Part shown: positions 6,035 to 64,000 of the stretch, piece after piece
Numbering within the stretch: the stretch's first letter is position 1
Layout of the letters: the number at the start of each line of letters is the position of its first letter
NCBI GenBank assembly: GCA_022496805.1
Contig: CM040103.1
Coordinates: forward strand, 23,846,820 to 23,910,819
Length of the DNA: 64,000 nt
Reading direction: 5' to 3'
Source: Pohlia nutans
Taxonomy: Eukaryota > Streptophyta > Bryopsida > Bryales > Mniaceae
The notes under the pieces: generated by a model
Told to the model about the DNA's origin: nothing
What the model saw: only the letters and a program-made list of their open reading frames with translations
Databases searched by the model: none
Translations under genes and position numbers: made by a program

Positions 6035-6035
6035 C

Positions 6036-26280: not shown

Positions 26281-26552
26281 CAAGTTCCTATTGTGAACAT
26301 CCCCCAAACAAAGTGTGGGGAAGGCAATCGCAGATGCTGCATGATATTCTACAGCATGATATCTCTACTACACACACTCCATGTTAATTCTATATTACGT
26401 TACTGCGCAAATACACTACAGATCCAATAAATATTGATCCCGCGGTTATAGGTTCTTTTGAAAAAAACTCAAAAAAAATTTGAAAATTTTCTAGGCTCTC
26501 AAGCTCTCAGGCTCTCAGGCTCACGTCCCAGGCTCACATCCTAGCATTCCCG

Positions 26553-38262: not shown

Positions 38263-38715
38263 TCAACCGTATGGTCTACGTTTCACATTTGCATTCCGGC
38301 TGTACGAGTCTATCAATCTGACGGTCGACATTCTTCCAAGCGAAAAATCCCTACTGAACGGTTTCATCATAGCAGGATCAGACTTGTGTCCCAGCAAAGC
38401 CTTGGAATATGTACTAGGAGGAATGTTGCCAACCTTGGAGTATGCATGATTGACAATGCGTGCATCGTCACTGTGATCTGAATGAAACGCAACCTTTGGT
38501 TCATCACACTCAATCAATTTCGGACGTTGTTTGCTGCGGTCAACGACGAGAGAGTGCTGCTTGTATTGCCCGTCTATCTCTACTTGAATAGCAGGCTGAA
38601 ATGGTATAGCATCATCGAAGACATTGGTGATGTCGATGACCTCGTCTAACAAGCTCTCCATGATAACTGCAGATCCACCATAGACACCACGCCCATCCAA
38701 CAAGACGTCTACCAA
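38263..38715 (-). CDS. Gene Y of M3 (unknown small protein)
   Basis: The 150-residue ORF is intact and matches the copy at 28857-29267 closely, including IPFQPAIQVEIDGQYKQ, DDARIVNHAYSKVGN and STVRLIDSYSRNANV. It starts with VDVLLDGRGVYGGS upstream residues not separately resolved in the other copy. No known domain is recognised. The coding sequence and the spacer to X are both retained in two elements, which argues that it is a real gene of this transposon family. It lies about 150-400 bases inside the left end of M3 and points toward that end. Confidence 0.65.
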   Translation of the reverse strand: MVDVLLDGRGVYGGSAVIMESLLDEVIDITNVFDDAIPFQPAIQVEIDGQYKQHSLVVDRSKQRPKLIECDEPKVAFHSDHSDDARIVNHAYSKVGNIPPSTYSKALLGHKSDPAMMKPFSRDFSLGRMSTVRLIDSYSRNANVKRRPYG

Positions 38716-39177
38716 TGTGACAGTCTTCCAAACCGACGTATATGTGTTCTAATCTGTTAAAGGGTTTAGACTATGAAAATGTCTATGGAACTGACATCCA
38801 GATGTGTGGCCAGAAAAGGCTCTAGTTCGATAGAAAGGCCGTCGGCTGGTCTATCTTATATTTGGGTTTAGGGTATTGCAAGGTGGCATTTTTTTATAGA
38901 AAGCGCCGCATAGTTGCAACATGGGCAAAGGTTCGTTGCATACACCCAAGAGCGCCGGGTTTAGGAATTACGGTATCGTTTTGAATTTTAGTTTAAGGTG
39001 CACTAAAAATGCTAATCTGAGTGACAATGTATAAGATTGCGGCTACGAGTATTTAGGGGTGAACGCTGCAAAATTTGTTATATTCTAGAGTTTAGGTTGG
39101 CATAGTTCATGTGGCATCATGATGCTATTTTAGAAATCAAAGATAGCAAAGGCATATAGATATGCCGTCCAAATGGT

Positions 39178-39975
39178 ATGCCTCTCCCTAAACTTGCTGG
39201 CGATCTCCATCACGGTCCATTAGCTGCTGCAGCTGTCGTATTTCTGTTTCTCTCCATGGCCCGCATCTACGTTACAGGTCACGAGGTTCCTATCGTAGTG
39301 GAAATGGGTTGGGATAAGTACGCTCGAGTTTCGGCCCTAGATCTCGCTGTTCGTTTTGGCTTAGTAGCATCATCAATAATGGTGGAGTTAGAAGTCCGTG
39401 GTAGGAACGGGTCCGTGGAATCAGGTGTGCTGCAGACGAGGGGGGACGACCCGGAAGGATACTACTGGATGCTTTGTGCTGGTCAGTACAGAGCTTACGG
39501 CTTGTTGAACTCATCACATGGAGTTCAACAGATTGACGATTCTGTGTCAGACAATGAATGGGAAGGATTGGGCGGTAGGGACAAATCAGTGTATCCCGAA
39601 GTCACCAGGAATGGGTTCACGTTCCAGATGCAGTACCCTATTGCCTCAGTCGAGGGAGTAGTGGAATTGTGGCTGTGGGAATTTCCACATTGCAAAACTC
39701 ATTGGATAGATCTGGCTGTGATGCTATTAGACAAAGATGTTCTAGATAGATATGGGGTTCAGTGTGATATTTGGGACGACTCTCCGAGGGACCCGATGGT
39801 GTGGCGGCTGATGTGGTCACACTATATATGTGAGTTGCTAGGCCTACCGGACCCTTGCAACATCGAGGTGAACGAAGTTATTTCGAAGGAGTTATCGATT
39901 GCACTGCAGGAACACTTTGATGATGCAGACAAGGCTCCGTTTTGGAACTCAATTGAAAATAGCGAGAAATTCTAA
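39178..39975 (+). CDS. Gene X of M3: transposase N-terminal-domain protein (intact)
   Basis: The 265-residue ORF has the N-terminal domain of the transposases (MARIYVTGHEV from residue ~28, AVRFGLVASS, GYYWMLCAGQYRAYGLL), then a unique C-terminal half with GFTFQMQYPIASVEG, WLWEFPHCKTHWIDL, and LLGLPDPCNIEVNEVI. The codon that is TGA in the M0 copy is TGG here. It lacks the zinc region, catalytic core and SWIM finger. A truncated transposase-domain protein could act as a partner or an inhibitor of the transposase; this is inference. It is divergent from Y across about 460 bases. Confidence 0.7.
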   Translation: MPLPKLAGDLHHGPLAAAAVVFLFLSMARIYVTGHEVPIVVEMGWDKYARVSALDLAVRFGLVASSIMVELEVRGRNGSVESGVLQTRGDDPEGYYWMLCAGQYRAYGLLNSSHGVQQIDDSVSDNEWEGLGGRDKSVYPEVTRNGFTFQMQYPIASVEGVVELWLWEFPHCKTHWIDLAVMLLDKDVLDRYGVQCDIWDDSPRDPMVWRLMWSHYICELLGLPDPCNIEVNEVISKELSIALQEHFDDADKAPFWNSIENSEKF

Positions 39976-40691
39976 TATGTAGATGACCTTAGTGTATTGG
40001 AAGCTTAGGGGTGCAATCATACTACGTAGCGTTTGTTGCAAACATGAATGTACTACAACATACTATAATAAAGTTTGAGAAGTAAGACAGTAGTCTGTAA
40101 ATTTGCCCAAGCTTTGGCACCAACAAGTAGCTAAGACTTCGAAGCTACCATAGTGGATGCTACAACTTAGCAATCCAGACTGCGATTTGCACTAGAAAAG
40201 ATACAATATAGTCATCACTGCTGCTGGCACGAACCAATATAGACACAACATCTGTGGTATCAAACGAAGTGGAGAGTAAAGGATTTGCGAGATAGAAGTA
40301 GACCTTCGCGGCCCAAAGCCATTATGACATAGTCATAAAAACTATCAGAGCGGATGGTCTAAGACTATAAGGAATTGGTCCTTGTGCCCAAAAAGATGGA
40401 CCCAAAAAAATGATAAAATTATCTTGAGATCAATCATGAACATCACAATTGGAAACAGTCCACTCGTGACTGTTGATAATAAACAATAGAACACATGAAT
40501 ATCGGTTTTAGCGGAGTAGTATCTAGTGTTGAACCACGGGTGTAGTGCAATTGTATCTCCAACAAGTGCATTGCTAGTGGCCCTCTTTGGCTAACAGTCT
40601 TACTCACACTCATTGACTATTCCCAAACAAGTGATAATGAAGCGTGAGGGATAATCAAGCGTGGACTTCGTCCATATACTAAATAAGATGC
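39976..40691. other. Convergent gap between X and transposase B
   Basis: Both neighbours end here, so the stretch should hold two terminators. The first 110 bases are shared with the M0 copy downstream of X (GTAGCGTTTGTTGCAAACATGAATGTA-like sequence). I see no gene and no array, in contrast with the 127-bp units found at this place in M0. Confidence 0.55.
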
Positions 40692-43064
40692 CTACGAGTT
40701 AGAACGGGTCAATATTCCACTTTCGAGAAGGAGCTTGATTTTGTTGAAGCTGAAAGTCGGGGCATGAATGAATAAGTCGACGTTGGGGTCACGCTTGCAC
40801 ACCTTTATGAAGACGTAATAAATGTGTTTGCAATAGCTGAAATACCCACCTTTCTTACCGAACTTGACCATGGTCTGTTTGAATGCAGGACAGGTGCATG
40901 CAGGTTCGGAGCTCACTGTAATCTGGTATTGTGTCACAGCAGGTTGAGTTCCAGAGTCCAAAGCTATGATGCATCCATAGCCTAGGTGTGGAACCATGGT
41001 AACGCTGTCGATTCTCGCCTTGAGAATCCTGGAGGAATCGATGCTGAGACTCTGCTTGGAGGTGGGAACGTTGGCTTGACGGCGAACTTTCTTGGACTTC
41101 CGCTTTCCTGGATACCGGTCTGCATCACTTGGAACTGGGACAGTGGACTTATCTGAAGGCAACAGTGCATTGGAAAATAGCCTCCTAGGAGACACTTGAA
41201 TTTTCTGTGGGAGCTGAAATCCTGCAGCTTCGAGCGCTTGAATCTCCTTGAGCTTGAGGTTCGTTCCTAGCTTCACGGGCCACACATCAGGAATTGGCGG
41301 CCTTGGTTCCGTGGACGAAAAGTGCCTCACCCACTTGCGTCGAGTACCCTTCACGCACCTCTCGATGTCATCGGGGCAAAAGAAGAATTGTTCGTGAATC
41401 TCCCTGCCCAACCTCACATTCAGCCATTCACCGGTGTATGTTGGAGCGGGGGTGTTAGTCGAATTCCGGACAATTTTGGCATCGCACTTCTTCTTAGTTA
41501 CTGCTCTCGTTGCCCAACACGACTTGGCACTCGTTTTGGACAACCGAGCAATGTGCCAAAGTCGCTCGTTCACAGTGGATTCTTGGACCGCGGTAACATG
41601 CTGAATACCACCTTCCAGGACAGGTGGTGAGGATGGAATCACGGGAGATGCGATGACCTCCGAAGCTTCGGTTTCTTTCTCCTCGGCTATGACTGGTAGA
41701 GAGGCTATCCTAGAGAGAGCAGCTCGCTTCAATGCTGGGGGGCGAGAGTAATTCACCGTATCCGGCCGATGGGACTCACCGTCATCTCCAAGCGGCAGGT
41801 CCGGCTTGCGCTTGGTTGAGCCGAATACCTCCTCTCCTTCTAGGTGAGGATCACGGATGCAAAACTCATCAGCTCTGGGCATATCCAGCATTGCCTCTTT
41901 CAGCACTCTAGGGTCGCCTGTGCTTCTGGCGCGCCGTTGTGCATTTCTAAGTTTGAGCTTGTTCTTGCAGGGACCGGATCCTCCAACGTCTCCCTTTAGG
42001 AATTGGTAGTATGCCACTACCTGCATAAACGCACGTATGTAGTCGTCGACAGTGGCAATGTAGAGGTGCTTGTGATGCCCAAGATGAATGCAAGCCCTTG
42101 TGACGTTCGGCCCACCATGGACATAGTATATTTTAGCGCTACAGCTGTTCACGCAGGTGGGAGGCTCTTTGCAAACATTGCAGACCAACGTGGAGTCCTT
42201 AGGAGGCGACTCCTCCACTGTGAATGGCCTCCACGTACAGCCTTCAAATTCGGTATCATTAAGTGGAGATGTCCGGTGGGCACGCTTCAAGTATTCGCAC
42301 TCCTTGTTGCGACACTCCAAATGACCTACGCAGATCGAGAATCGGAACGACAGGCCCAATGGATTAGAAATATTAGTTGTCATAGTTCTAGTCCACACAT
42401 GGCCATCGTACCTCTTATCCATTCCATGCATAGTTCTTGCGGTAGTGTGAGAGGTGTGAAGCGAGGCGGCAGGAAACTCGTACACTACGTCTCCATCAAA
42501 TTTGGGAGGAAGATAGTCCACCTTGATCGTCGTGATCGTGTCGTAGTCAAGTTTCTTGAGCACGTTCTTCTTCCCATGTAAGGTAGCTAGTTTTTTCAGC
42601 TTGGGTAAGATACTTGCAGCGGAGAGTGACTTGGCCGAGGGAGAGGGATATGGACTCTCGTTCAGGTTGATGGATTCAAGACTACGAGCGGTTTTTAGAA
42701 GACTATGAGTGGCACAAAACTCTGATGACGGAGAGCTAAGATTGTGAATGGGAGGACGTTCAGTGACCGTCTCAGTATCAGACGAATCACTCAAGAGAGC
42801 AATGTACGAAGTTGGTTCCGACTCAAGCTTAACAGAAGTGGATGATCCATAATGGGGAGTACTTTTCACATCGAGATCATGCTCCACCTTGACTTTGCTA
42901 AGAAGAGGAGCCTGCATAGAGGACGTGGAGGATAGAAGTGGTGTTCCAGAGGACTTCGATTTCGGAAGTCCGTATACATCATACTTTCCTGGTTCAAGCT
43001 TCCACAGTAGACTTTGATCCGGACTGACATCTGGTTGTTGAATAACGGTGAGAGACGGGGACAA
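40692..43064 (-). CDS. Transposase-derived ORF B (M3): zinc region fused to SWIM half, DDE core deleted
   Basis: The 790-codon ORF is open from 43064 and in frame with an ATG at 43259-43257, but a TAG at 43098-43100 (TAT in copy A) interrupts codon 54, so the true start is uncertain. It encodes the linker and zinc region (CVGHLECRNKECEYL, CNVCKEPPTC, CIHLGHHKH), then jumps directly to LYIATVDDYIRAFMQ, DPHLEGEEVFGSTKRK and the SWIM finger (PACTCPAF, YCKHIYYVF). Compared with copy A (3702-6034 plus 18166-19597), the whole catalytic core and the intron are missing. The junction falls at a shared ACC trinucleotide and keeps the frame. The product, if made, would keep its DNA-binding parts but be unable to cut. 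Confidence 0.8.
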   Translation of the reverse strand: MSPSLTVIQQPDVSPDQSLLWKLEPGKYDVYGLPKSKSSGTPLLSSTSSMQAPLLSKVKVEHDLDVKSTPHYGSSTSVKLESEPTSYIALLSDSSDTETVTERPPIHNLSSPSSEFCATHSLLKTARSLESINLNESPYPSPSAKSLSAASILPKLKKLATLHGKKNVLKKLDYDTITTIKVDYLPPKFDGDVVYEFPAASLHTSHTTARTMHGMDKRYDGHVWTRTMTTNISNPLGLSFRFSICVGHLECRNKECEYLKRAHRTSPLNDTEFEGCTWRPFTVEESPPKDSTLVCNVCKEPPTCVNSCSAKIYYVHGGPNVTRACIHLGHHKHLYIATVDDYIRAFMQVVAYYQFLKGDVGGSGPCKNKLKLRNAQRRARSTGDPRVLKEAMLDMPRADEFCIRDPHLEGEEVFGSTKRKPDLPLGDDGESHRPDTVNYSRPPALKRAALSRIASLPVIAEEKETEASEVIASPVIPSSPPVLEGGIQHVTAVQESTVNERLWHIARLSKTSAKSCWATRAVTKKKCDAKIVRNSTNTPAPTYTGEWLNVRLGREIHEQFFFCPDDIERCVKGTRRKWVRHFSSTEPRPPIPDVWPVKLGTNLKLKEIQALEAAGFQLPQKIQVSPRRLFSNALLPSDKSTVPVPSDADRYPGKRKSKKVRRQANVPTSKQSLSIDSSRILKARIDSVTMVPHLGYGCIIALDSGTQPAVTQYQITVSSEPACTCPAFKQTMVKFGKKGGYFSYCKHIYYVFIKVCKRDPNVDLFIHAPTFSFNKIKLLLESGILTRSNS

Positions 43065-43259
43065 CTCGTGAGAATCATCATAGATGTTCTTCTCTACCTA
43101 TAGACTGGATTCATTAAAATGAAATCGCATGATGAGGTGTTTACTAGAGACAAGAGCAATTCCTTCGCCATTCACAGGGAATGACACAGGAGCACTTGAG
43201 CCATAGGCTGAGAGGATCGCAGTCTGAAAGGAAAGGTCGGAAGGTGGAGGAGATGCCAT
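43065..43259 (-). pseudogene. N-terminal start of transposase B, cut off by a TAG
   Basis: From the ATG the frame gives MASPPPSDLSFQTAILSAYG, then FPVNGEGIALVSSKHLIMRF, matching the N-terminus of transposase A, and runs into TAG in place of Tyr. It shows that the ORF below it is a decayed version of a full transposase, not a gene with a new start. Confidence 0.7.
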
Positions 43260-43768
43260 GAGAAACACGTCCTAGCATGAAGAAGAAGAGAATGGGTCAC
43301 ACTAGAAGGTGGAGTGTATAAGAATACGCATTCTGTTTAGTAGAATGATGTTGGCCACCACATGATTGAGAACATATGCAGATGAATGCTTTCACTGACA
43401 CAATCATTATAGTTCAAGCACCAAGTAAAGGATGTAGCCGAAATTTTGAGCACGCCAACTAAGGATTGTCTGAATTTGCGAATATAAAATTGAGGAAAAT
43501 ATTGATTAGAACAAGGGGTGAAATATAGAATTCGGCGATTCATTTTTTATTTGAAGTTGGGAAACTCTTTGTATTTGGTCAGTTGTGTATAATAATGGCA
43601 AAGTCATAATTATGAGCACGTGGGGATTAGAAGTATTTAGAATAGATTGGAGTAGTTTGAATCCTAGCGTTGAGTATATATCATGTGAATAACACAACGA
43701 AAGCCATGTAGAGAAACGATGCAGTGATATTGAAAGTGCTAGAAAGAGATTGTTGTAGTGTACACATG
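43260..43768. promoter_or_regulatory. Divergent intergenic region, transposase B / helper (M3)
   Basis: This is the counterpart of 3183-3701 in the outer element, in inverted orientation and of similar length. It must hold both promoters. I cannot name individual sites. Confidence 0.4.
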
Positions 43769-44242
43769 AAGCAAGGAGCACCATCGAAGAACGTGACACC
43801 AAAGAAGAAGAAGAGACGAGGACAAACGGATTGGGCCGGCACAAAAGCAAAGCGAAGGAAGGAAGTTAGGAAGAGGTTGTTGCTCGCGAGGAGTACTCCG
43901 AGAACGCAACCCGAGGTGGATTCAGAAGATGTAAGAGTGACGAGTAGGAAACATTGTAGCATCAACAAACTATCGCTAGGATCAATTCACGAGGGAGTTG
44001 ATAAGAACCAAGAAGGCAAAGAGTTAGGAGATACATTGTCTTTAGACCGGTCGGATCCAATGCCTGATCATCAGCGGAGGCGAGGCGATCGAAACTGTCT
44101 TTCAAATGTGAACGTTTGGTCCTGGCTTGACAACAACTACAACGAGGGTCATTTAGAGATTAGAGAAGACATCCAGTGTGCTGGCCATAATGAGGTAATG
44201 TATTGGAGTTACGAATCGAAGCGTGTCTGGAGTGTCATATAG
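43769..44242 (+). CDS. Basic helper ORF of M3
   Basis: The protein begins MKQGAPSKNVTPKKKKRR, and the open frame extends 45 bases upstream without a better start. It is about 157 residues long, basic at the N-terminus, and keeps SRKHCSINKLSLGSI, a MPDHQRRR segment and NVWSWLDNNYNEGH as in the M0 copy at 2685-3182. The two copies differ at many positions but keep frame and motifs, which suggests constraint on the protein. A nuclear, nucleic-acid-binding role is plausible from its charge. No family is recognised. Confidence 0.65.
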   Translation, partial: KQGAPSKNVTPKKKKRRGQTDWAGTKAKRRKEVRKRLLLARSTPRTQPEVDSEDVRVTSRKHCSINKLSLGSIHEGVDKNQEGKELGDTLSLDRSDPMPDHQRRRGDRNCLSNVNVWSWLDNNYNEGHLEIREDIQCAGHNEVMYWSYESKRVWSVI

Positions 44243-45559: not shown

Positions 45560-48500
45560 GATTCATAAACATCAGCAAAAACACGACTATGAGCACAAAC
45601 AGCATGAATTCAATTAGACGACTATGAACACGAGCAAGAACACGACCAGCATGAACACGAAGACCATGAACACGAAGATGAACACCAGCACGAGCTGGTG
45701 TTCATCTTTGTGTTCATGGTCTTCGTGTTCATGCTGGTCGTGTTCTTGCTCGTGTTCATGGTGTTCATCTTTGTGTTCATGGCCGTGATGCTGGTGGTCA
45801 TCATCGTGTACATCTTCGTATTCATGGTCTTCATGATCTTGCTGGTGTTGATGGTCGTGTTCATGGTGATCGTGTGAATTACCTCTGGGTCTAGCACTGG
45901 GATTAGCATTGGCTATGTCAGTGGGGGTATAGCTCGTGTACGAGCACTAGTTCAGTGAGGTGCAATTCACAAGGGCAGGGATCCCTATTTTTGAAATGGC
46001 ACCAGAAGATGAACACCAGATGATGAACACCATGAACACGACCATGAGCACGAACAACATGAATTCAATTGGACGACTATGAACACGAGCAAGAACACGA
46101 CCAGCATGAACACGAAGACCATGAACACAAAGATGAACACCAGCACGAGCTGGTGTTCATCTTCGTGTTTATGGTCTTCGTGTTCATGCTGGTCGTGTTC
46201 TTGCTCGTGTTCGTAGTTTTTGTGTCTTTGAGCTCGGGGATTAGCTTTGGGTATAGCTCTAGATATATAGCTCGGGCACGAGCTATACTCGTTTGAGGTG
46301 CCAGCCACTCTGGGGTATACACGAGTAGAGGACCTTGAACTCCAGAAAGAATACGACCAGCATGAGCACGGAGACCATGAATACGAAGATGAACACTAAC
46401 AGAAATGAAAAAAGTAGAAATAAATACTATTAGTGTCACTCCAGATGTATAGCTCATGTACGAGCTCTAGTTTTGGGAGGTGCTAGCCACTAGGGGTGGG
46501 ATCTCTATATTTGTTTTAGACACCTCGATTTCGTTGCTGTCCGGGTAGCTCTCGTGTACGAGCCCTTGGTGCTGCCTGTTCCTGGTGCTCTCGGATGTTC
46601 CTGGTACTCGGGGGTGGCACGTAGAGTGGGACCTGCGAAAGCACTGAGAATATTTTAAGACTAAAATAAATCTACTTGGTTTCGCTCTGGATGTATAGCT
46701 CGTGCACGAGCTCAACTTAGAGAGGTGCCAGCCATCGGGAGGAGGATCCAAATTTTGTGTTGGACACCAGTCAATCGTGGTGGCACGAGTATCGCTCGTG
46801 TACGAGCACGCCACGCAAAGGCTGCCTCTTACTTGGGGATAGCGCATTATGAGTCACATATTGAGCCTCGGGCCATCCCAACGGACTAGTTATGATACAC
46901 CAGCGCCCTCAAATAGATCAATTTTTGGATATAGAACTAAACAAGAGAGCAAGCGCACTACCGACGTTGTTTATTGTTGCAAATTAACTATCACGCATGC
47001 GGGGAAGTATATAATCATCGTCAATAAATTCAATTATCCGTTTTGACCCAACTAGACCGCGTGTACAAGAGGGTCCACCATAAGCACTGGTGTCGTTCTA
47101 GATGTATAGCTCGTGTACGAGCTCTAATTTTGTGACGTACCAGCCGCTGGGGTAGAAGACCATGATAACCAGCAAGAACACGAGTTCATGGTGTTCCTGT
47201 CCCTGAGCTCTGGGTTTAGCTTTGGGTTTAGCTCTGGATGTATAGCTCGTGCACGAGCAATATAACTGTGAGGTGCGAGCTACTGGGGGCTGAACAAGAG
47301 TGGAGGACCATGATCACAAGCAAGAACACGACCAACAAGGACACGAAGACCATGAACACGATGATGAATACCAGCACGAGCTGGTATTCATCTTCGTGCT
47401 CATGGACTTCGAGTTCTTGCTGGTCGTGTTCTTGCTCGTGTTGAAAGTGTTCGTGTAATGGAGCTCTGGGTTCAGCTCTAGGTTTAGCTCTGGATGTATA
47501 GCTCGTGCACGAGCTATGTACTTGTGAGGTGCGAGCCACTGGGGGTGAACAAGAGTAGAGGACCATGAACACCAGCAAGAGCACTACCAGCAAGAACACG
47601 AAGACCATGAACACGAAGATGAACACCAGCACAAGCTGGTGCTCATCTTCGTGTTCATGGACTTCGTGTTCTTGCTGGTCGTGCTCTTGTTGGTATTGAT
47701 AGTGTTTGTGCCGTTGAGCTCTGGGTTTAGCTCTAGGTTTAGCTCAATATGTATAGCTCGTGCACGAGCTATGTACTTGTGAGGTGCGAGCCACTCGGGG
47801 TGAACAAGTGTAGAGGACCATGAACACGAGCAAGAGCACGACCAGCAAGAACACGAAGACCATGAACACGAAGATGAACACTAGCACGAGCTGGTGCTCA
47901 TCTTCGTGTTCATGGACTTCGTGTTCTTGCTGGTCGTGCTCTTGCTCGTGTAGATATTGTTCGTGTCGTGGAGCTCTAGGTTTAGCTCTAGGTTTAGCTC
48001 TGGATGTATAGCTCGTGCATGAGCTATGTACTTGTGAGGTGCGAGCCACTGGGGGTGAACAAGAGTAGAGGACCATGAACACCAGCAAGAGCACTACCAG
48101 CAAGAAAAACGAAGTCCATGAACACGAAGATGAACACCAGCACGAGCTGGTGCTCATCTTCGTGTTCATGGACTTTGTGTTCTTGCTGGTCGTGCTCTTG
48201 TTGGTATTGATAGTGTTCGTGTCGTTGAGCTCTGGGTTTAGCTCTAGGTTTAGCTCAATATGTATAGCTCGTGCACGAGCTATGTACTTGTGAGGTGCGA
48301 GCCACTCGGGGTGAACAAGTGTAGAGGACCATGAACACGAGCAAGAGCACGACCAGCAAGAACACGAAGACCATGAACACGAAGATGAACACCAGCTCGT
48401 GTTCATGGTCTTCGTGTTTTTGCTGGTCGTGTTCATGCTGTTGTTCATGGTCTTCGTGTTCTTGCTGGTGATCTTGGGCGTGTTCATGGTGTTCATCTTC

Positions 48501-48750
48501 GTGTTCATCTTCGTGTTCATGGTCTTGTTGGTGGTCATGGTCGTGTTGATTGTGTTTGTTTTCGTGTTCATCTTCACGTTCATCTGCGTGTTCATGTTCT
48601 TCGTGTTCTTGCTGGTGAACATGGTCGTGTTCAAGTTCTTCGTGTTCTTGCTGGTGAGCATGGTCGTGTTCATGGTCTTCGTGGGGTTTAGCTCTGGGTG
48701 TACCACTGTTGGTATAGCTCGTGTACGAGCTCAAGTCTTGTGAGGTGCTA
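45560..48750. repeat. Hairpin repeat block A: GAACAC/GTGTTC arms and GCTCGTGCACGAGC dyads
   Basis: Units of about 256 bases (clear at 47243, 47501, 47757, 48009 and 48266) consist of a GAGCTCTGGGTTTAGCTCT lead, the dyad GCTCGTGCACGAGC, a GAGGTGCGAGCCACTGGGGG stretch, and a long inverted repeat. The inverted repeat has arms of 45-65 bases made of GAACAC, AAGAACACGA and ATGAACACGAAG words around a short CACGAGCTGGTG centre. The arms are nearly perfect, so RNA or single-stranded DNA from here would fold into strong hairpins. ORFs full of MNT and CSS repeats arise from these words on both strands and are not genes. Confidence 0.9.
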
Positions 48751-48770
48751 GCCACTTGGGTGCGATCCTA

Positions 48771-51700
48771 ATGTGGACAGGATTTGAATGTTTTGATCAG
48801 CTAGAAGAAGAAGAGCCTCTTAGCAAATGCCCTGACGATGTTACTACCATTGCCCAAAGTCAGATACTACACAGGAAGAATCTCAAGGTTGATTTCAATA
48901 GTGTGATTAATGACATGCGAATCTTGCCAATCAAGAATGCCCGCCTTCAGGTTCCCTTGTGCCGCATGATTGTCATGGATGAAGTACGAGCAGTTGGTGA
49001 AGTAGACGTGCAACGTCTCGAGAGCGAATTTGTCAACGGCTATCGTGATGGTGATCGTGTTCTGTACTTATCGGTGTACAATAACCTGGAAGTATCACGG
49101 GACGTTACGGACCAAATCACCTCCCAATGGAGCCCTCTCTGGCAGAAGGTCAATCTAGAGTTTGAGCGCGAGCTAGAAGCAGATGATGATCTTGCCAGTC
49201 TGAGGGGCAAGATGTTTTATGTATGGGATGGAAATCACCGTGTCACTACGTGGACGCGCTATATCAAGAACTTCCACGCAGATGAAGAAAAATGGCATTA
49301 CAGAGTTCATTGTATGATGCTGGATCCAAGAGGACAAGTGGCGCTCTTGCTGAATGCAATGAGTGATGTTAACTGGTGCAGTATCTTAACTTTTCTATCA
49401 TTTAGTTCTTCATGTTTTCTAACTTGAGCGTTTGACCAAACTATTACTTGGTTTTGTAGGTCAACGAAAAATGATCACGTTAAGAGCACGCTACGAGCCA
49501 AATTACGCCGCGTCAGAACATTTGGTGTTCTCCCACTTACGGCATTCAAGGACCTCATTACCCCGGAAGAATATCAATACTGCGAGAAAGTTAAACCCAA
49601 ACACCCTTCTTGGTACTCGCTCACGATCACGATCTTCATTACATTCCTATACCGGGTGAGCAACTTCTCATTCAATACCTTAACCTTGTGCTTTAATTGC
49701 AATTGATCGTGACATACTTATCGCATTTTACCTCTTGCAGAGAGAGATATCGATTGCAGCTGACGATGCAGCTCGTGAATACCAGAAGAATACTCGTCCT
49801 GAGGAAAGGACCCCAAACGGAATATGGGAGGCAATGAAGGAATCGACTCGAAAGTTTGTGAAAGCCGTGAAAGGGAACTTCTTTGATAAATACATGTCTG
49901 TGGCAAATCCAGCAAATGGAGAAGACTTCATGAAAGAGGTGCGTTAGAGTAATTCCTTTATTACCCGTATATTGGTCGCGATTGTATGTTTTTCAAAACT
50001 ACTGACCTTTTCAAATCCTGTCTATAGATCGATCGGCACTTTAGCGAGAACGTCCCATCCGAGATGACCATTGAGAAACTACAGAAACTTGCGACATCTA
50101 TTACAGATGGGAAGTACAAGGCAAGGTGGTTGCGCTGGTGGAATTCCTCTGTTGACGCAAGGCGTGCGTATCGATTTTTAGTTGGAAAGCATAAGGATCA
50201 TGTCTGGGACAGCTGGGTGGACAAAGCAACCATCTGGGCAGAGGTGAATTTCTTTAGCTTTGTTCTATTGTTTACTTTTGCATTTGGATCCGGATTTGAT
50301 AATCAGACGCACGATAATGAGCAGAGCTCGTACTAGAGACTAAGTTTTCAAGAGTGCCAGCTAATAGAGGATGGAACATATATTCACTTACATTGTCGAT
50401 TTGTAGTGGTGGACTGTGATGCTCAAGAGTGACATGTATCGCCATGGTCTTCGTGATCTTGCTGGTGTTCATGGTCGTGTTCATGGTGTTCGTGTCCTTT
50501 AGCTCACGGATTTACTCTGGGTTTAGCTCTGGCTGTACCACTCGGGGTATAGCTCGTATACGAGATCTGGATTTGTGATGTGACAGCCACTAGGGGTGAA
50601 CACGAGTAGAGAACCATGAATACCAGCAAGAACAAGAAGACCATGAACACGAAGATGAACACCAGCACGAGCTCGTGTTCATGGTCTTCGTTTTCTTGCT
50701 GGTGTCCATGGTCGTGTTCATAGTGCTCATCATCTCGTGTTCGTGGTGAACACCAGATGATGAACACCATGAACACGACCATGAACACCAACAGCATGAG
50801 CACGAGTAGACGACCATGAACACGAGTAAGAACACGACCAGCAATATCACGATGACCATGAACACGAAGATGAACACATGCACGAGCTGGTGTTCATCTT
50901 CGTGTTCATGGTCTTCGTGTTCTTGCCGGTCGTGTTCTTGCTGGTGTTCATGGTCGTGTTTATGGTGTTCGTGTCGTTTAGCTCTGGGATTTTCTTTGGG
51001 TTTAGCTCTGGGTGTACCACTCTGGGTATAGCTCGTATACGAACTCTAGTTTGTTGAGGTGCCAGCCACTAGGGGTGAACACGAGTTGAGAACTATGAAT
51101 GCCAGCAAGATCACGACCAGCAGGATCTCGACGACCATGAACACGAAGATGAACACCTGCACGACCTGGTGTTCGTCTTTGTGAGCATGGTCATCGTGTT
51201 CTTGCCGGTCGTGTTCTTGCTGCTTTTTATGGACGTGTTCATAGTGTTCATCATCTGGTGTTTACCACGAACACCAAATGATGAACACCTTGAACACGAC
51301 CATGAACACCAACAGCATGAGCACCAGTAGACGACCATGAACAAAAACAAGAACATGACCAACAAGAACACAAGGACCATGAACACGAAGATGAACACCA
51401 GTGCGAGCTGGTGTTCATCTTTGTGTTCATGATCTTCGTGTTCTTGTTGGTGTTCATTGTGTACGTGTTGATGGTGTTCATCTTCTCGTGTTCGAGGTGA
51501 ACACCTGAAGAAGATCACCATGAACACGAAGACTATGAACACCATGAACACGACCAACTGGTGTTCATCTTCGTGTTCATGGTCTTCGTGTTCTTGCAGG
51601 TGATCATGGTCGTATTCATGGTGTTCATCTTCGTGTTCACCTTCGTGTTCATGGTCCTGTTCATGCTGGTGTTCATGGTCCTGTGAATTAGCTCTGGGTT

Positions 51701-54700
51701 TAGCTTTGGTTTAGCTCTGGCGATTTCACTGGGGGTATAGCTCGTGTACGACCTCTAGTTTTGAGACGTGCAATCCACGAGGGGTGGGATCCCAATTTTT
51801 GTTCTGTCACCAGAAGATGAACACCATGGACACAACCATGAACACGAACCGCATGAACACGAGTAGACGACCAGCATGACCACCAGCAAGAACACGACCA
51901 GCATGAACACGAAGACCATGAACACGAAGATGAACACCAGCTCGCGCTGGTGTTCATCTTCGTGTTCATGGTCTTCGTGTTCTTGCTGGTGATCATCGTC
52001 GTGTTCATTGTGTTCATCATCGTGTTCATCTTCGTGTTCATGGTCATGTTCTTGCTGGTGTTAATGGCCGTGATCATGGTGTTCATCTTCGTGTTCATCT
52101 TCGTGTTCTCGCTGGTGTTCATGGTCGTGTTCATGGTGCTCGTGTAGATTAGCTCTGGGTTTAGCTCTTGGTTTAGTTTTGGATGTATAGCTCGTGCACG
52201 AGCTCTATTCTTGTGAGGTGCTAGCCACTGGGGGTGAACACGAGGTCCATTGCATGCAGAACTCTAACTATTGGGATTTTGGCAATAGTTGGAAGAGGCC
52301 GTCGTGAAGATGGTTGATGAAATTCTCAAAGACGAGAACATCACTGTTGATTGGACAATTTTTGGTACACGGAAACCAGGCAATTATGTAGAGAGTTGGC
52401 GAATTCTGCTATGGGACAAGGCCTTTAGCAATTTCTTTGGCACAAAAGACAACAAGCTTTACATTAAGAAGACTCCGTTCAAAGATTACCCAGGAACAAC
52501 TCAAGCGGTCAAGCGTGTTGTCTACAGGTTTGCGCTCAATTAGAATACGTCTTCCATTACTCTTGTTTCTTTTGTAGCATGATCATCATTATTGTGTTAT
52601 CATTCATTAGAACTCATATTGTTGATCTTTCTAATGCTAGGTACCTAGTCCGTATGCTGGTCGCGAAGAAAGTCATTTCAAAGGATGCATTACCACTCTA
52701 CTTTGAGTCCTGGCTCCAGAAAGGCTCGGACATGGCCATGTTCACGTTCGAGCAGTTCAAGAGATTTAATGCAAAGCATTTGGATTCTGGATGCTGGTAC
52801 CTGGATTGCAGTCGAAATTATACTCCATTGACAGGGGTTGTTGAGCGGACTGCCATTGACGGAGGTCAAGCTCCAGTGGAAGCCGTGGATGACATCTCAA
52901 ACGAAGAGTACCTTCAGGTTATCCAGCCTCCCAAGGAGAAGAAGAAGCGACAAACCAAGGCAGATAAAGAGAAGGCTGAGAGAGAGAGAATCGAGAAGGA
53001 GAAGGCGGAGAAGGAGGCAATCGAGGAGAAGGAGAGTGGAGCCAAAGAGAAAGGAGACAAAGAGAAGGGAGCCAAAGAGAAGGGGACCAAAGAACAAGGA
53101 GCCAAAGAGGCCTTGGTTGCAACGGAGGAGGCTGGCAACGAGGACTCTGGTAGAGACGACGAGTCTCCATTAGACGCACCCTTTGTCAGTCATGACACTG
53201 CAGGTCGTTCGGAGGATCTGGCTCTCGAATGTACCACACCATTGGCGCCAGATTCATCCATTTCGAATGGGTTTCATGCATCAGTGCACCGCTTGCGAAA
53301 GAAGAAGCAGTCTCAGTTTCCATGTGCCAGCTCATCTAGGGTTGAACAAACGTCATTGCGGGTGCATCTGGAGTGTACATCTCTACAAGAGCTTGCGGAT
53401 AATGCGCAAAAGTCTTTAGCGGTTGATCCTCGATGGGTACAGCTGCACGACTGCATCGCAAAGGTGATTTTAATTCCCACGATCCATCATGTTCAATTGG
53501 CTCACATCTCTTTTCATTGCTACGCTAACTTGGATTATTGTTTAATGGGTAGGCAAATTCCAGTCGCCAGCGACATGTGTCATCAGAGGTTTGCAAGAAA
53601 TTCAAGCACACAGGGATAGATTTAATTATTGCAGATATCCCTGAAAACTTGCCCGTTCCTGGCATCTCAACAACTGTTCCAGATTGGAACTCGCGTGTAA
53701 CGAATTATATAGAATACGTATTTCAGATGGCTGACAATATTCTTCACGACGACGGTGCACTGGTTCTCATTCATTGTGACGATCGTGCCTTGATGATGGA
53801 AATCGATGGGAGGGCTGACCAGTATGACATGAAACTCCTCAAGGATTGGTGGGGCATTAATGAACTCTGCTTGGCATTGCCTCGAGATCCAACTCTCACG
53901 GTAACAACTACACTGTAATTGCTAGATTCCATATGATTTTCTCGTTCCATAATTATATCTTCATTCTTGGTTTGTATGTCAACTAATTTGTGTCGTATGT
54001 GATGGGGAGAAATGCCAGTCGGTTCGTTTTTGGATCCAGCTCTTTGTACGAAGCGTGATTCCTTCGCGCTTCTCTTTCTCTGAGAATCGAGGTGCACACT
54101 ATGGTGGTGACCCTGTTGAGAAGAACGACGCGCTGTTTAATCTCACGGATGACGATGTGACTATGAACAATGGCATACCGTGGCGTGGAGCACGTGAGAA
54201 GAACGAGCCATTTTTTCGCTTGCTAATTCAACAATTTTGCAAGCCTGGTGACATCGTACTTGATTGCAAAGCTTCCACTGGTATGACGTACATTCTTTAC
54301 TATGATATGCATTAATTGAGTTTTCTTCAATATTTGAACACTTTGCCTAATTCCTGATATTTTTATGATATAGGCACATCTGTGAAGGCGTGTATCGCAA
54401 CCGGCCGTCACGTCATTGCTTTGGAGGACGATCGTCTAATTTTCGACGCCCTGCTTGCACCCTTGGCACCTGCAAAAGTCCATGATTCTGCTGCGAAGGC
54501 AAAGATTACTACTCCACCAGTAAATCCCAATCCGGCTAAAAAACCCAAGAGGCAGTGGTTCACCACCACTTGTGCGTAAGTTGTGAAATTTGGCTTAAAT
54601 GATTTGGACTTGTCTAAATAATCATCACGGTTTCTCGTCCCATTCTACTCGTCTTATTCTACTCTAACTCGTTATACGGCTTGTGCAGAGAGTTTACCAG

Positions 54701-54896
54701 GGATCTAAAACTTCTTAGTTCGCCTTCATCATTCAAACTTCCTGAATACGCGGAAGAGTTTGCAAAGGCGTATGTCGCAGTATCTCCTAAATCACGTCGT
54801 AGTAGACGTTGCTATAATCCCAGAGTTCGTGAATTTGTAGATGACGAGGCTGATCAAGGTGAAGAATTCGAAGATGACTCCTCTGCTTCTAGTTAA
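48771..54896 (+). CDS. ParB-like / N4-N6-type DNA methyltransferase of M3 (ten exons, intact)
   Basis: Exons are 48771-49375, 49460-49655, 49741-49938, 50028-50243, 52289-52527, 52641-53463, 53553-53900, 54019-54280, 54374-54575 and 54689-54896. All phases agree, giving about 1098 residues. The ATG is the first in the open frame; earlier exons are possible. Domains: ParB/sulfiredoxin-like with DGNHR at 153-157; a conserved middle region (WWNSSVDARRAYRF, WRILLWDKAF); a Lys/Glu coiled region near 560-640; then the methyltransferase. DIPE (787-790) stands for DPPY, and DCKASTG (957-963) for DPFxGxG. IV precedes I as in beta-class DNA amino-methyltransferases, with GRHVIALEDD after motif I. The tail is Ser/Arg- and acid-rich. 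ParB-methyltransferase fusions are known from phages and bacteria; the eukaryotic introns here argue against contamination. Activity is not certain. Confidence 0.82.
50330..52250. repeat. Hairpin repeat block B inside methyltransferase intron 4
   Basis: The 2-kb intron between the fourth and fifth exons is filled with the same inverted repeats as block A, with dyads near 50551, 51029, 51738 and 52191. The other introns of the gene are only 57-118 bases. The intron boundaries (GAG|GTGAAT and CAATAG|TTG) lie just outside the repeats, so the array expanded within an existing intron. Confidence 0.88.
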
Positions 54897-56373: not shown

Positions 56374-57523
56374 TTAAAGCCCATATCCAATGCTCATCGA
56401 GGACATATTCTGTTCACGACGAATGGCGAGTATGAACCCTTCGTAAACAGCTGATTGCTTCACAGAGCGCATCATATCGTCAACTGTTGCGATGTAGAGA
56501 CCCGTCCCTCTACTCTCCGACAGCCGTTTCCAGTGGCTATATGCGGTTCCGCCTAGATTACACGATGGTAAATCCGCCTCCACGCAGATTTTGAGATCCT
56601 GATCACAAGATTAAAAAGGGTCAGTGACATCGATAATCACATTACTGACATTTGTTTCAGCAATATATTCTCACAGCATCGATTCGAGAAATTACCAGGT
56701 GAAAGAAGCCGCCCCATTGACGGTATCTGAAGTGCCAGAATCCTAACCAATTATCCAGCAGTCGCACTCCATCTTCGATAGCAGCTCCTGAAGACAACCA
56801 CATATCTCTTACGCAGTGGTACAGCTCTTCAGACTCCCAAGCGGTCTTGGCCTCTTTGTAATCTTTACAAAGTTTCTTGTGGAACTCTTGACTGTTTGGC
56901 TGAATATTCTCCAGTGTCACCCGTTCCAATGAACCGGTCCAATCCATATCAAGACATCTCTCCCTACCAACCAACTTACAGTTTGGATCCCCATTCCCGT
57001 ATATGACCCTCAAAGCCTCCCAGTTAGCTTCATGTCGGTCCGCTATAAATCCTTTGAAGTAGGGATTGGGAACCCCGTTTCTTTCCATTACTTGATTAAA
57101 AGCTATCCACATGTGCTTCTGCGACTCCGCATCATTGTTGGTAATCTCACAAGTGGCTATGGTCATCAATCGACCAAATTCTGCATCAAAAACATGACAG
57201 GACATCGTCGTCCATCCAACCACTCTCTTGATATGGTCAAACATGATCCAGCAACTCGCTAGATCTCCTCCTGGCTGCATTCGCCTCACAAGATCAACCC
57301 CACAGCCCGATCCATCTTCCGACATCTTGAACAAGTACGTCCGCTCAGTGCAATCATCAACGATGTCGCACTGCTGAATGAACGAGTAAGGGCACTCGAT
57401 TCTCAACCGTTCTACGTCATCGTCTAAACCTAGGTCAGCCTCCACAGCCGAGTCGACGCTCACAGCATCCCTTTTGTATTGAGAATGAAACCTAGCAAAG
57501 TGCTCGATCATGGCTAGGTACAT
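56374..57523 (-). CDS. Isolated MULE-like transposase catalytic core (third subfamily)
   Basis: Exon 1 (57523 to about 56699) encodes MSEDGSGCGVDLVRRMQPGG, MFDHIKRV, CHVFDAEFGRLMTIATCE, GFIADRHEANWEALRVIYG, LSSGAAIEDG and WLGFWHFRYRQWGG. A CACCTG|GTAATT donor and a TGATCAG acceptor join exon 2 (about 56603-56374), which encodes EADLPSCNLGGTAYSHWKRL, YIATVDDMMRS and then stops. It has the core residues of transposases A and C but no N-terminal zinc region and no SWIM finger. A TAG lies in frame just before the first Met. It could be a remnant, or it could supply the catalytic part missing from ORF B in the same element. Confidence 0.7.
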
Positions 57524-60130: not shown

Positions 60131-60279
60131 TGACGAGCTGCGATAAAACTCCAACCTTTCACTTCCGGGTTTGAATTACGAGTAGATGTGATTTGCATGG
60201 ACTAGATGACTTGTTGTCCTTATTCGTGATACTTTCCAAAGTAAGCTCTCTTTTGATCGCCGCAATGTCGAAGTCCTTA

Positions 60280-61810
60280 GGGCTGTCCCGCCGGTTGGTC
60301 CCGGGACTGCCCGGGACTGCCTAGAGGGCTGTCCCGGTGGTTGGTCCCGGGACTGCCCGGGACTGCCTAGAAGCTGTCTCGGTGGTTGGTCCCGTGACTG
60401 CCCGGGACTGCCCAAAGGCTGTCCCGGTGGTTGGTCCCGGGACTGCCCGGGACTGCTTAGAGGGCTGCCCCGCCGGTTGGTCCCGGGACTGCCCGGGACT
60501 GCCTAGAGGGCTGTCCCGGTGGTTGGTCCCGGGACTGCCAGAGACTGCCTAGAAGCTGTCCCGGTGGTTGGTCCCGGGACTGCCCGGGACTGCTTAGAGG
60601 GCATTCCCGGTGGTTGGTCCCGGAACTGCCCGGGACTGCTTAGAGGGCATTCCCGGTGGTTGGTCCCGGGACTGCCCGGGACTGCTTAGAGGGCTGTCCC
60701 GGCGGTTGGTCGCGGGACTGCCCGGGACTACCTAGAGGGCTGTCTCGGTGGTTGGTCCCGGGACTGCGCGGGACTGCCTAGGAGCTGTCCCGGTCATTGG
60801 TCCCGGGACTGCCCGGGACTGCTTAAAGGACTGTCCCGGCCGTTGGTCCCGCGACTACCTAAGGGCTGTCCCGGTGGTTGGTCCCGGGGCTGCCCGGGAC
60901 TGCTTAGAGGGCTGTCCCGCCGGTTGGTCCCGGGACTGCCCGGGACTGCCTAGAGGGCTGTCCCGGTGGTTGGTCCCGGGACTGCCCGGGACTGCCTAGA
61001 AGCTGTCTCGGTGGTTGGTCCCGTGACTGCCCGGGACCGCCCAAAGGCTGTCCCGGTGGTTGGTCCCGGGACTGCCCGGGACTGCTTAGAGGGCTGCCCC
61101 GCCGGTTGGTCCCGGGACTGCCCGGGACTGCCTAGAGGGCTGTCCCGGTGGTTGGTCCCGGGACTGCCGGAGACTGCCTAGAAGCTGTCCCGGTGGTTGG
61201 TCCCGGGATTGCCCGGGACTGCTTAGAGGGCATTCCCGGTGGTTGGTCCCGGGACTGCCCGGGACTGCTTAGAGGGCTGTCCCGGCGGTTGGTCGCGGGA
61301 CTGCCCGGGACTGCCTAGAGGGCTGTCTCGGTGGTTGGTCCCGGGACTGCCCGAGACTGCTTAGAGGGCTGTCCCGGCGGTTGGTCGCGGGACTGCCCGG
61401 GACTGCCTAGAGGGCTGTCTCGGTGGTTGGTCCCGGGATTTCCCAGGACTGCGTAGGAGCTGTCCCGGTCGTTGGTCCCGGGACTGCCCGGGACTGCTTA
61501 AAGGACTGTCCCTGCGGTTGGTCCCGGGACTGCCTAAGGGCTGTCCCGGTGGTGGGTCCCGGGACTGCCCGGGACTGCCTAGAGGGCTGCCCCGCCGGTT
61601 GGTCCCGGGACTGCCCGGGACTGCCAGAGGGCTGTCGCGGTGGTTGGTCCCGGGACTGCCCAGGACTGCCTAGAAGCTGTCCCGGTGGTTGGTCCCGGGA
61701 CTGCCCGGGACTGCCGAAGGGCTGTCCCGGTGGTTGGTCCCGGGACTGCCCGGGATTGCATAAGGGCTGTCCCGGTGGTTGGTCCGGTGACTGCTGAGGA
61801 CTGCCTTAGG
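60280..61810. repeat. Tandem array, ~33 units of 46 bp with GTCCCGGGAC palindrome
   Basis: The unit is GGGCTGTCCCGGTGGTTGGT followed by CCCGGGACTGCCCGGGACTG and CCTAGA. It contains the 10-bp perfect palindrome GTCCCGGGAC and a second CCCGGG. Some units are shortened or altered in phase. The array ends about 300 bases inside the right end of M3. ORFs with VGPGTARDC repeats come from it and are not credible genes. Confidence 0.95.
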
Positions 61811-62114
61811 GCGAATCTAAACCGATGTGACTTCCCGGGACTAGGTATCGTTGATGAACCCTAACTTTTACCGGCATAAATGTTCCCTAAACCTTTAAAA
61901 TAGTAAATATACTATTAAAAGAAAATTACCATGAGGTAAACTCCTATTTTTAGGTGGGGTAAAAACCTAAATATAGACCACTTTTTACCGAGTTTTTCCT
62001 AATCTAGGTTAAAAATTGTTCGAAATTTACTAGGTAAATGTGAATTTTCTGCTCTCCGCTCTCGGCTTTCTGCTCTCCGCTCTCCGCTCTCTGCTCGCAC
62101 ACGAGCTTTCCCCG
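61811..62114. other. Right subterminal region of M3
   Basis: The stretch is AT-rich, with TAGGTAAA and TAAAAACCTAAA words, and then changes to the terminal CTCTCCG octamers and the end sequence CTTTCCCCG next to the target duplication. No gene is visible. It is organised like the M4 end at the window start. Confidence 0.7.
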
Positions 62115-63475
62115 GCTATGTACGAGAACGAGCACAACCGGAGGGGTCGATGGCAAGGGGGTACATCATGGAGGAGGCGATTGGATTTTGCACTGAGTAC
62201 ATGCAAAATTGTACTATGACAGCACGCTGTGTTTGGGACGACAAAGAGGAGCCCAGTATGAATGACGAAGTGTTGCAAGGGAAGGGGAGACGACGCATAT
62301 TGTTGCCGGAACTGCAATAGTGGATTCATGAGTTCGTGAATAACAACGCTGAAATCCTTCAAGATTACAGACAGTAAGCTTCTGTGCAATATGATTTCCA
62401 CATAGCTATATAAAATAACCAAAGCACTACGTCTGGTCATCATTTTAGATTAAAAGAGTAGCTATTAGCACGAGACAGACGGGACAGTCAGAATAGTGGA
62501 ACAAACGACTACGTGTAGTCACCATTCTGGAAGCACTTACTAACTTCTGTGCACATGAGGTTGTCTTCTAAAAATTTAGGAACAATGACGGACTGGAGGT
62601 GATGTGTATATTGCAGGCGGTACACGAGTGAAATGAGTCGACGAGAAGAGGCTTGAAAAGAATTCCGAAAACGAAGCAGGAGAGAACTTCCAGATTATCC
62701 CATGGATATACGACATGAATCCTTCAATACGTGGTTCAAAACTGCTGCATCTGAAGACGTTGCAATGGGCATTGATGTCTCTGGGGATATACTCGCACTG
62801 GTACTGCCTCCTAGACGAGAAGCGAAGGGATACAAGGCGATGTATGCATACGGCAATCATATACAAGTACGCTCTGCAGAAGTAGATATGTTGACATGCG
62901 ATAGTGGAGTAGCGGCTACGTTTCTGCAATCGTGTCGCGCTAGCTCTAGTGACAGGAACATGAGGACAACAAATCTGGAGTATGTGGGGTGGGTGGACGA
63001 AATTATCAGCGTAGACTACGGCAAATTTGAAGTGGTGGTGTTGTATTGCACATGGGCCCAAGCAAACAAGAGGGGAGCTCGCGCTACAATGAAATGTGAC
63101 GAATATGGGTTCACGTTGTTCAGATTTGATCGATTGATTCCATATTCAGCGGACTCCTTTGCATTCCCTCTTCACGTACAACAAGTTTTTTATGTAGACG
63201 ACGAGGACAGCAGTGGATGGAAGATTGTGTTACGACGACAGCCGCGTGGCGCAAGAGTCGAGTCAAGTGATGGCGGAAGAGATGATCTGCAGAGTGTGCA
63301 GTTAGGTAGAGATGAGGAGCATGTAGGCCTACGGCCTGAATACACTACCGTGGAAAGGGAACTAGACACTCCTGATTTGAGAAGCTGTAGGAGACTAACC
63401 ACAGAAGATGTAAACCAAGCTTTGGTCGCTGCAGAGGAGGATCTAGAGGTGGGACATGATTTGCCATCAGAGTAG
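62115..63475 (+). pseudogene. TNP2-type transposase, 3' part (DUF4218 end and DUF4216)
   Basis: The frame resumes at the second target duplication with YVRERAQPEGSMARGYIMEE and AIGFCTEYM, the usual sequence after the DUF4218 domain. Exon end 62373 (GTAAGC donor) joins 62617 (TTGCAG acceptor); the intron holds TGACTA repeats. The last exon encodes DIRHESFNTWF, AYGNHIQVRSAEVD and YVGWVDEIISVDYGKFEVVV. DEYGFTLFRFDRLIPYSADS and QQVFYVDDEDSSGWKIVL follow; these mark a DUF4216 domain. Stops occur at 62318-62320 (TAG) and 62654-62656 (TGA). With the TAG at 37817 there are three nonsense codons in the split gene. Confidence 0.87.
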
Positions 63476-63637: not shown

Positions 63638-64000
63638 GGTTTTGGGGCCTTCAGGCTTTGATTCGATGGTAAATCAGATAATGCACCAACTAGCCTAGTA
63701 CTTGCAAGCTGCTTCATTTGAAAAAAAACATCAAAGATATGCTAGTAATTAAGAGGAAAAATAACCATAAAAAGATTCCTCGTGTAGAATCTGTAGCAAA
63801 ACTATGAACAGAAGTTAGCAATCCAGAACGTACGAAAAAAGTTCCTAAAACACGACATAGAGAAGTGACCATATTAAGAAACAAAGTCCAATAATTCAAT
63901 TTAGGTAAAATTACTGAATGAATACAAGCTGTAGCTAATAGCCAAGGCATAAAAGAAGCATTTTCTACAGGATCCCAAAACCACCAACCCCCCCACCCTA
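63638..64000 (-). pseudogene. ccmF: Nuclear insertion of mitochondrial ccmF fragment (NUMT)
   Basis: Read on the minus strand, the window end gives [20 protein letters not shown], then [37 protein letters not shown], and [20 protein letters not shown]. The first stretch holds the [12 protein letters not shown] signature of CcmF, the cytochrome c haem-lyase subunit encoded in plant mitochondria. One T is missing from a T run near 63721, shifting the frame; in the restored frame the match continues through [17 protein letters not shown] to about APKP, where homology stops. The fragment has no start or end, so it is not functional. Its high conservation suggests a fairly recent transfer. It may extend beyond the window. 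Confidence 0.9.

Follow-up and report, generated by a model that had tools for sequence, protein, structure and literature searches.

A predicted spliced gene for a ParB-like and methyltransferase-like protein within large Mutator-like elements of Pohlia nutans

Results

The gene and its domains

A stretch of 64,000 nucleotides from contig CM040103.1 of Pohlia nutans (hereafter the window) carries a predicted ten-exon gene whose product joins a ParB-like N-terminal domain to an amino-methyltransferase-like C-terminal domain, and this gene lies within a 24-kb Mutator-like element that we call M3 (Table 1). The joined exons give 1098 codons and a stop without a single internal stop codon, and all nine introns have GT-AG borders, which bears out the intact spliced frame of about 1098 codons that an earlier note had proposed from the letters alone. 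The gene predictions P0001, P0002 and P0003 run through the introns and depart from the coding frame at the modelled borders. A second copy of the gene, with one frameshift and one stop, sits in a separate delimited element of 12.1 kb, M2, so that the ParB-methyltransferase gene is a recurrent component of these elements.

Exon 1 is modelled as a ParB/sulfiredoxin (Srx) alpha/beta fold. Its AlphaFold2 (AF2) model, with a mean predicted local distance difference test score (pLDDT) of 83.7 and a predicted template-modelling score (pTM) of 0.75, matches Srx, ParB and Noc structures in both Foldseek and VIA-align; the ParB/Srx fold expected in the earlier note thus reappears at the level of structure prediction, around the DGNHR motif that the note had named. 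In 89 aligned sequences the N and H of this motif are invariant (89/89), with G kept in 88, R in 87 and D in 83, and we take DGNHR to be the equivalent of the G-x-H-R type pocket motif of the ParB/sulfiredoxin superfamily, a pattern to which it conforms. None of the 89 members matches a Pfam ParB family at E<=0.1, and DUF1015 is matched weakly by five of them. A fold search of BFVD with the ParB model returned nothing at E<=0.001; at weaker E-values it returned many ParB-like proteins as well as others, including one annotated as a phage DNA methylase.

Sequence comparison identifies the C-terminus as a permuted N6/N4 amino-methyltransferase domain, assigned to the beta-type class because motif IV precedes motifs X-I, and the permuted N4/N6-type domain read in the earlier note is thereby upheld. 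Against PF01555 (N6_N4_Mtase; cut-off 26.7 bits), copy 2 scores above the threshold at 29.2 bits and the M3 gene below it at 24.1, and the L004 stretch (a third family member, below), which ends at motif I, gives no match. PHROG methyltransferase families match the M3 gene with E-values down to 1.4e-8. The domain is matched by 308 phage records, and among the 15 of these that are listed, 14 cover at least 80% of it (20-24% identity, E from 5e-5); profile-profile comparison with three of these phage enzymes gives a probability of 97.5. Among solved structures, a profile of the three family members detects CcrM (8.8e-5, over positions 17-232) and, with its motif X-I part, DpnA (1.2e-5).

The signature residues of this domain are altered. 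Motif IV reads D-x-P-E-[ND]-LPVP in all three members, at the place of DLPY or DLPF in the phage enzymes, and the catalytic [DNS]PP[YFW] occurs in none of the three; the DPPYNISV of DpnA also aligns to motif IV, but that part of the alignment has no significance when taken alone. Similarly, none of the three has the FxGxG that binds S-adenosylmethionine (SAM); A-x-T-G stands there instead, with the following acidic residue kept. Because two of the three members are intact, and because identity to the M3 gene in this domain is as low as 39% for copy 2 and 36% for L004, the D-x-P-E change is, on these alignments, a family trait and not the decay of one copy. With D-x-P-E in place of [DNS]PP[YFW] throughout, methyl transfer is likely to be weak or absent.

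Relatives of the gene

The M3 frame is more than a product of chance, because its intron pattern is common to copy 2 and to L004 and its codons are conserved in the way of coding sequence. Copy 2 can be divided at nine introns, seven of which agree with those of the M3 gene in alignment column and phase; for introns 6 and 9 the offset is 6 and 12 columns, in equal phase, where the alignment is poor. The two copies share 189 of 524 aligned residues (36%) in the N-terminal half and 161 of 522 (31%) in the C-terminal half; for the middle region (aa 202-545) the figure is 124 of 325 aligned positions. Identity at codon positions 1/2/3 is 0.51/0.62/0.37 in the N part and 0.47/0.52/0.33 in the C part, which is a coding pattern. 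L004 has an unbroken frame of 1136 aa, identical to the M3 gene at 348 of 1047 aligned residues (33%), and shares the column and phase of five of its six introns with that gene, the sixth being 15 columns off in equal phase. Three members of the family are of full length, at 31-39% identity, and two of them, the M3 gene and L004, are intact.

L004 (1-4691) is the public contig CADCWO010000058.1 of the GTDB set, labelled Synechococcales MAG81. Because it has introns at conserved positions, it appears to be of eukaryotic origin and to have been placed in a bacterial genome by mis-binning.

The full 1098-aa query found no homologue at E<=0.001 among 7995 scored proteins, which is no evidence of absence, since narrower queries later gave 2 and then 345. 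The latter number was obtained with exon 1 of both copies (E<=1, among 3712 candidates). In the best 120 of these 345, every E-value is below 1e-61, contigs are at most 17.4 kb long, and the proteins are without Pfam domains or functional names. [DE]GNHR is present in 117 of these 120 and the motif at the end of exon 1 in 115; in 102 the protein finishes exactly there, which is what a phase-2 donor such as AA/GTGAGT (exon/intron), coming next and yielding a stop, would produce. Three scans of viral contigs gave no relatives; GTDB contigs gave none in a first scan and one, L004, in a second. The N-terminal half found no match in plasmids, queried with aa 1-540 of the M3 protein, or in phages, queried with the corresponding half of L004.

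The carrier elements

Carriage of the gene within a 24-kb MULE-like element (MULE, Mutator-like element), as the earlier note had it, is confirmed by terminal inverted repeats (TIRs), a target-site duplication and the reading frame restored at the insertion site. The M3 TIRs (37893-37955 and 62043-62101) are 76.6% identical over 64 columns (E 8.8e-5). A 13-bp direct repeat, whose two copies differ at one position, stands on either side of them; about 0.003 such repeats would be expected by chance in the positions compared. The 9-bp duplication, also with one mismatch, was picked by eye from this repeat so that the TIR lengths agree. M3 interrupts a CACTA TNP2 gene (35570-37819 and 62657-63475), with Pfam Transposase_21 and DUF4218 on the left and DUF4216 on the right, in an element that we take to be of the plant type. 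When M3 is excised in silico, the joined flanks, ...MYPVERYLKTLKGYVR / ERAQPEGSMARGYIMEEA..., read in one TNP2 frame across the junction; in the interrupted gene itself, stop codons occur 16 codons before and 64 codons after this junction. M2 is delimited independently, by an exact 9-bp duplication (CCTTGCGGA, at 6026-6034 and 18166-18174) and by inverted ends (6042-6085 and 18116-18158) of 79.5% identity (E 0.033), and joining its flanks restores the frame of an older transposase gene, M1, without a stop.

Both elements thus have target-site duplications in the 9-11 bp range of Mutator elements together with TIRs. We assign them to Mutator from the 9-bp duplications and the terminal repeats, together with a sub-threshold hint of a SWIM finger (E 0.007-0.014); the transposases have no Pfam MULE match. 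A structure model of the catalytic part reached a pLDDT of 44 and was not used.

In M2, copy 2 and the transposase are divergent, with a 117-bp array in between, and M3 mirrors this layout with a transposase remnant, an array and the ParB-methyltransferase gene. The M1-type transposase is 93% identical in DNA to that of M3 over the C part. Between the M1 and M2 types, transposase identity is 34% in the N part, 55% in the catalytic part and 42% in the C part. This divergence is not far from that of the ParB-methyltransferase copies and fits joint inheritance of the two genes, although with two lineages compared the sequences are suggestive only.

Arrays upstream of the genes

Palindromic repeats precede all three ParB-methyltransferase genes: CTCGTCACGTGACGAG in M2, AGCTCGTGCACGAGCT in M3 and GGGTCTCGGATCCGAGACCC in L004. 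Between 44900 and 48770, upstream of the M3 gene, there are 14 palindromes with an arm of at least 7, compared with a mean of 1.1 and a maximum of 3 in 20 shuffles, and a 255-bp repeat occupies 47191-48396. Palindromes exceeded the largest of 20 shuffles in six of nine array stretches. These palindromes are candidate binding sites, no more.

Other features of the window

A probable short M2-type element, M4, lies in inverse orientation at about 20400-26570 (20.4-26.6 kb), its ends placed by similarity only; no trace of a ParB-methyltransferase gene was found in it. It has a 158-bp array with ATAGCCGTCGTGGCCGACGGCTAT in most units, and a palindrome near-identical to ATAGCCGTCGTGGCCGACGGCTAT occurs at 16069, between the M2 transposase reading frames. 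Near the right end of M3, a 46-bp array (60279-61806) has GTCCCGGGACTGCCCGGGAC in many units. The interval 27432-29267 is an inverted duplicate (92%) of 38290-40130, and in a frame at 39160-39975, 85 aa with 49% identity to the N-terminus of the M2 transposase are fused to other sequence. A search for separate ends of the 40.4-44.4 kb and 38.3-40.1 kb units gave no convincing inverted repeats. A small reading frame stands opposite the M1-type transposase in both of its copies (2685-3215 and 43712-44242), the latter without a Pfam match. The window also holds a SET-domain reading frame (34606-35202; Pfam E 3.2e-9) and, on the minus strand at 63700-64000, a cytochrome c assembly fragment (Pfam E 4.6e-15), which is probably nuclear mitochondrial DNA. 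Together, this fragment and the CACTA element of plant type would point to a streptophyte host.

Table 1. Coordinates of the ParB/methyltransferase-like genes, their carrier elements and associated repeats in the window
Feature	Position	Strand	Remark
ParB/methyltransferase-like gene, predicted	48771-54896	+	ten exons, 1098 aa
Exons 1-5	48771-49375, 49460-49655, 49741-49938, 50028-50243, 52289-52527	+	GT-AG model
Exons 6-10	52641-53463, 53553-53900, 54019-54280, 54374-54575, 54689-54896	+	GT-AG model
Exon 1: predicted ParB/sulfiredoxin-fold domain	48771-49375	+	AF2 model, Foldseek, VIA-align
DGNHR motif, aa 153-157	49227-49241	+
Exons 2-6: family-specific middle region (until about aa 545), then charged linker	49460-53463	+
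Exons 7-9: permuted amino-methyltransferase-like domain	53553-54575	+
Degenerate catalytic motif IV, DIPENLPVP	53634-53660	+	aligned to DLPY/DLPF of phage enzymes
Start of motif I, DCKASTGTS	54262-54280	+	remainder in exon 9 from 54374
Copy 2 of ParB/methyltransferase-like gene	6640-10906	-	tblastn within the window; one frameshift, one stop
M3, Mutator-like element with the ten-exon gene	37865-62113		24,249 bp
M3 left target-site duplication	37856-37864		GGCTACGTA
M3 right target-site duplication	62114-62122		GGCTATGTA
M2, second Mutator-like element	6035-18165		12,131 bp; nested in M1 transposase gene
M2 transposase	13705-17669	+	divergent from copy 2; one in-frame stop
M3 transposase-like gene	40692-43259	-	N and C parts, weak SWIM match, no catalytic part; one nonsense codon
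Transposase catalytic-region fragment	56657-57523	-	convergent with the ten-exon gene; 47-49% identical to M1 and M2 catalytic parts
Tandem, palindrome-rich repeats	45600-48760		directly upstream of exon 1
117-bp tandem array	11123-13635		between 5' ends of the divergent M2 genes; CTCGTCACGTGACGAG in some units

Discussion

Taken together, a reasonably probable reading is that the ParB-methyltransferase gene belongs natively, as an accessory gene, to a family of large Mutator-like DNA transposons in a plant genome of the streptophyte type, and that its product would be an element-specific DNA-binding, and probably anti-silencing, factor. That it is native to these elements is supported by M2 and M3, each of which carries it and each of which is delimited with a restored empty site. 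We suggest that the protein would enter the nucleus, where the ParB-like domain would bind the repeated palindromic DNA of its own element, perhaps under the control of nucleoside triphosphates (NTPs) as in other ParB/Srx proteins, and where the C-terminal domain, with its altered active site, would mainly recognise DNA or a base with little efficient methylation. Such a protein coat could maintain the activity of the element's promoter region or exert control over transposition, comparable to the VANC proteins of VANDAL elements though built from other domains; by this analogy a VANC-like anti-silencing role is plausible. The proposal in the earlier note that the element marks or reads its own DNA divides accordingly: marking becomes less likely, as the catalytic tetrapeptide is missing from all three members, and binding or reading becomes more likely.

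Several observations weigh against this reading. M3 contains other DNA that was captured by it or inserted into it, the catalytic part is missing from its transposase, and the L004 contig stops before any transposase is reached. Three of the nine array stretches do not exceed their shuffles in palindromes, and one of five control stretches is also rich in them. In four arrays, the columns of the palindromes are not clearly better conserved than others, and compensatory changes occur in 0 of 733 pair cells, a covariation test in which the M2 array was represented by a palindrome other than CTCGTCACGTGACGAG and which did not include the M3 upstream and L004 arrays.

The protein might instead be an active amino-methyltransferase, guided by its ParB-like part, that places N6-methyladenine (6mA) or N4-methylcytosine (4mC) on the element as a self-mark or to counter silencing by 5-methylcytosine. 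In favour of this, the domain is homologous, with motifs in the order IV...X-I, to DpnA, CcrM and phage methylases, and it retains the Asp and next Pro of motif IV, the Lys of motif X and the acidic residue after motif I; the N4CMT of bdelloid rotifers provides the example of a captured bacterial enzyme that works on eukaryotic DNA (PMC8885841). However, that enzyme has retained SPPY (PMC8885841), whereas in all three members here Glu replaces the catalytic aromatic residue and Ser or Met takes the place of the first Gly in the SAM loop, and we regard efficient methylation as unlikely.

A role in transposition itself, as an additional subunit concerned with DNA binding, the target site or nicking, in which the ParB-like part would be an NTP-regulated nuclease or DNA clamp, seems to us somewhat less likely again. 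The gene is paired with a transposase in M2, and ParB/Srx domains have been described as NTPases or DNases, a B. cereus ParB-methylase having nicking activity (PMC5512222). In the probable element M4, whose ends are known by similarity only, no trace of the gene was found, which argues that supply in cis is not required.

The capture of a host gene as a passenger of the Pack-MULE type we consider improbable. A spliced gene within an element, in M3 beside other unrelated fragments, is what such capture would leave; yet passengers are usually partial and recent, and here a full-length gene with a shared intron pattern is found in two elements that have diverged to 36% and 31% identity. A host orthologue may nevertheless exist, as the best 120 homologues lie on contigs no longer than 17.4 kb. 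The damage in copy 2, in the same window, might make one suspect that a decaying repeat has given rise to a spurious gene model, a reading so improbable as to be largely refuted already by the unbroken frames of both the M3 gene and L004 and by the 102 of the best 120 of 345 homologues that finish at the modelled exon-1 border.

Returning to the accessory-gene reading, we offer a more speculative and, taken as a whole, rather doubtful extension, in which eukaryotic transposons would have taken up a plasmid-partition-like module. A nucleotide-switched ParB clamp would recognise element-specific palindromic iterons between divergent genes; a pseudo-methyltransferase, its DPPY turned into D-x-P-E family-wide, would read bases instead of methylating them; and each element lineage would evolve a protein and iteron pair of its own, with such self-recognition modules on unrelated carriers, which would be Sola1 in Ectocarpus, Mutator-like elements here and perhaps others in red and green algae. 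If the accessory-gene reading is right, one type of accessory protein, bacterial in ancestry, would be common to unrelated transposon superfamilies of algae and plants, and in one branch or more it would have been retained long after the methyltransferase signature was lost. It would also become testable whether self-recognition of repeat arrays by a ParB-type domain, and not by VANC, lets transposons escape silencing in a host lineage with strong DNA methylation, and whether a pseudo-methyltransferase can take on the reading of DNA. For such tests the gene is well defined, its frame being intact and its elements delimited.

Proteins of this kind are already known, since one has been reported from a Sola1 transposon of Ectocarpus, and the claim of the earlier note that a eukaryotic, transposon-borne ParB-methyltransferase was without precedent therefore fails (PMC12477816). 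According to the available part of that report, Sola1-1_Ec32, an element of 21.5 kb, encodes a 1104-aa protein with ParB and N4/N6 methyltransferase domains on the strand opposite the transposase, which is read as a transposon accessory protein, and similar proteins are stated to occur in transposons of green and red algae (PMC12477816). The P. nutans gene is likewise that of a two-domain protein in a delimited giant DNA transposon, of nearly the same length (1098 aa); the carrier differs, Sola1 there and Mutator-like here, in a comparison made by description only. In the open-access literature we found no report of a ParB-methyltransferase in a Mutator-like element or in a streptophyte, nor of the D-x-P-E change, and as far as searched the Mutator-like carrier, the spliced, streptophyte-type gene family and the loss of the catalytic motif common to its members are new.

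Among more distant parallels, Bce_0392 of B. cereus and other prokaryotic and phage ParB-methylase fusions unite the same two domain superfamilies in one protein (PMC5512222, as far as available); in contrast to them, the middle region, the introns and the D-x-P-E motif of the P. nutans gene are family-specific as far as seen. VANDAL elements, a branch of the Mutator-type superfamily, also encode an accessory protein, VANC, whose domains are, to our knowledge, unrelated to ParB or to methyltransferases. In the accessible text on these elements, VANC proteins attach to tandem repeats that contain short motifs and lie in noncoding parts of the element, and the likeness thus lies in the combination of an element-encoded accessory gene with noncoding DNA made of tandem repeats (PMC10398659). 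Transposon-borne DNA methyltransferase (DNMT) domains, one case being from a charophyte, are described for retrotransposons of Symbiodinium and Klebsormidium and, as Dam-like domains, for DIRS elements (PMC5890265). These differ in being C5 or Dam-type enzymes on retrotransposon carriers, and the available part of the source mentions no ParB domain in them (PMC5890265). Conversely, the bdelloid N4CMT, as presented in the accessible part of its description, shares with the P. nutans gene a spliced eukaryotic structure and a permuted PF01555 domain, and differs from it as a host gene with a chromodomain and an intact SPPY that is not transposon cargo (PMC8885841).

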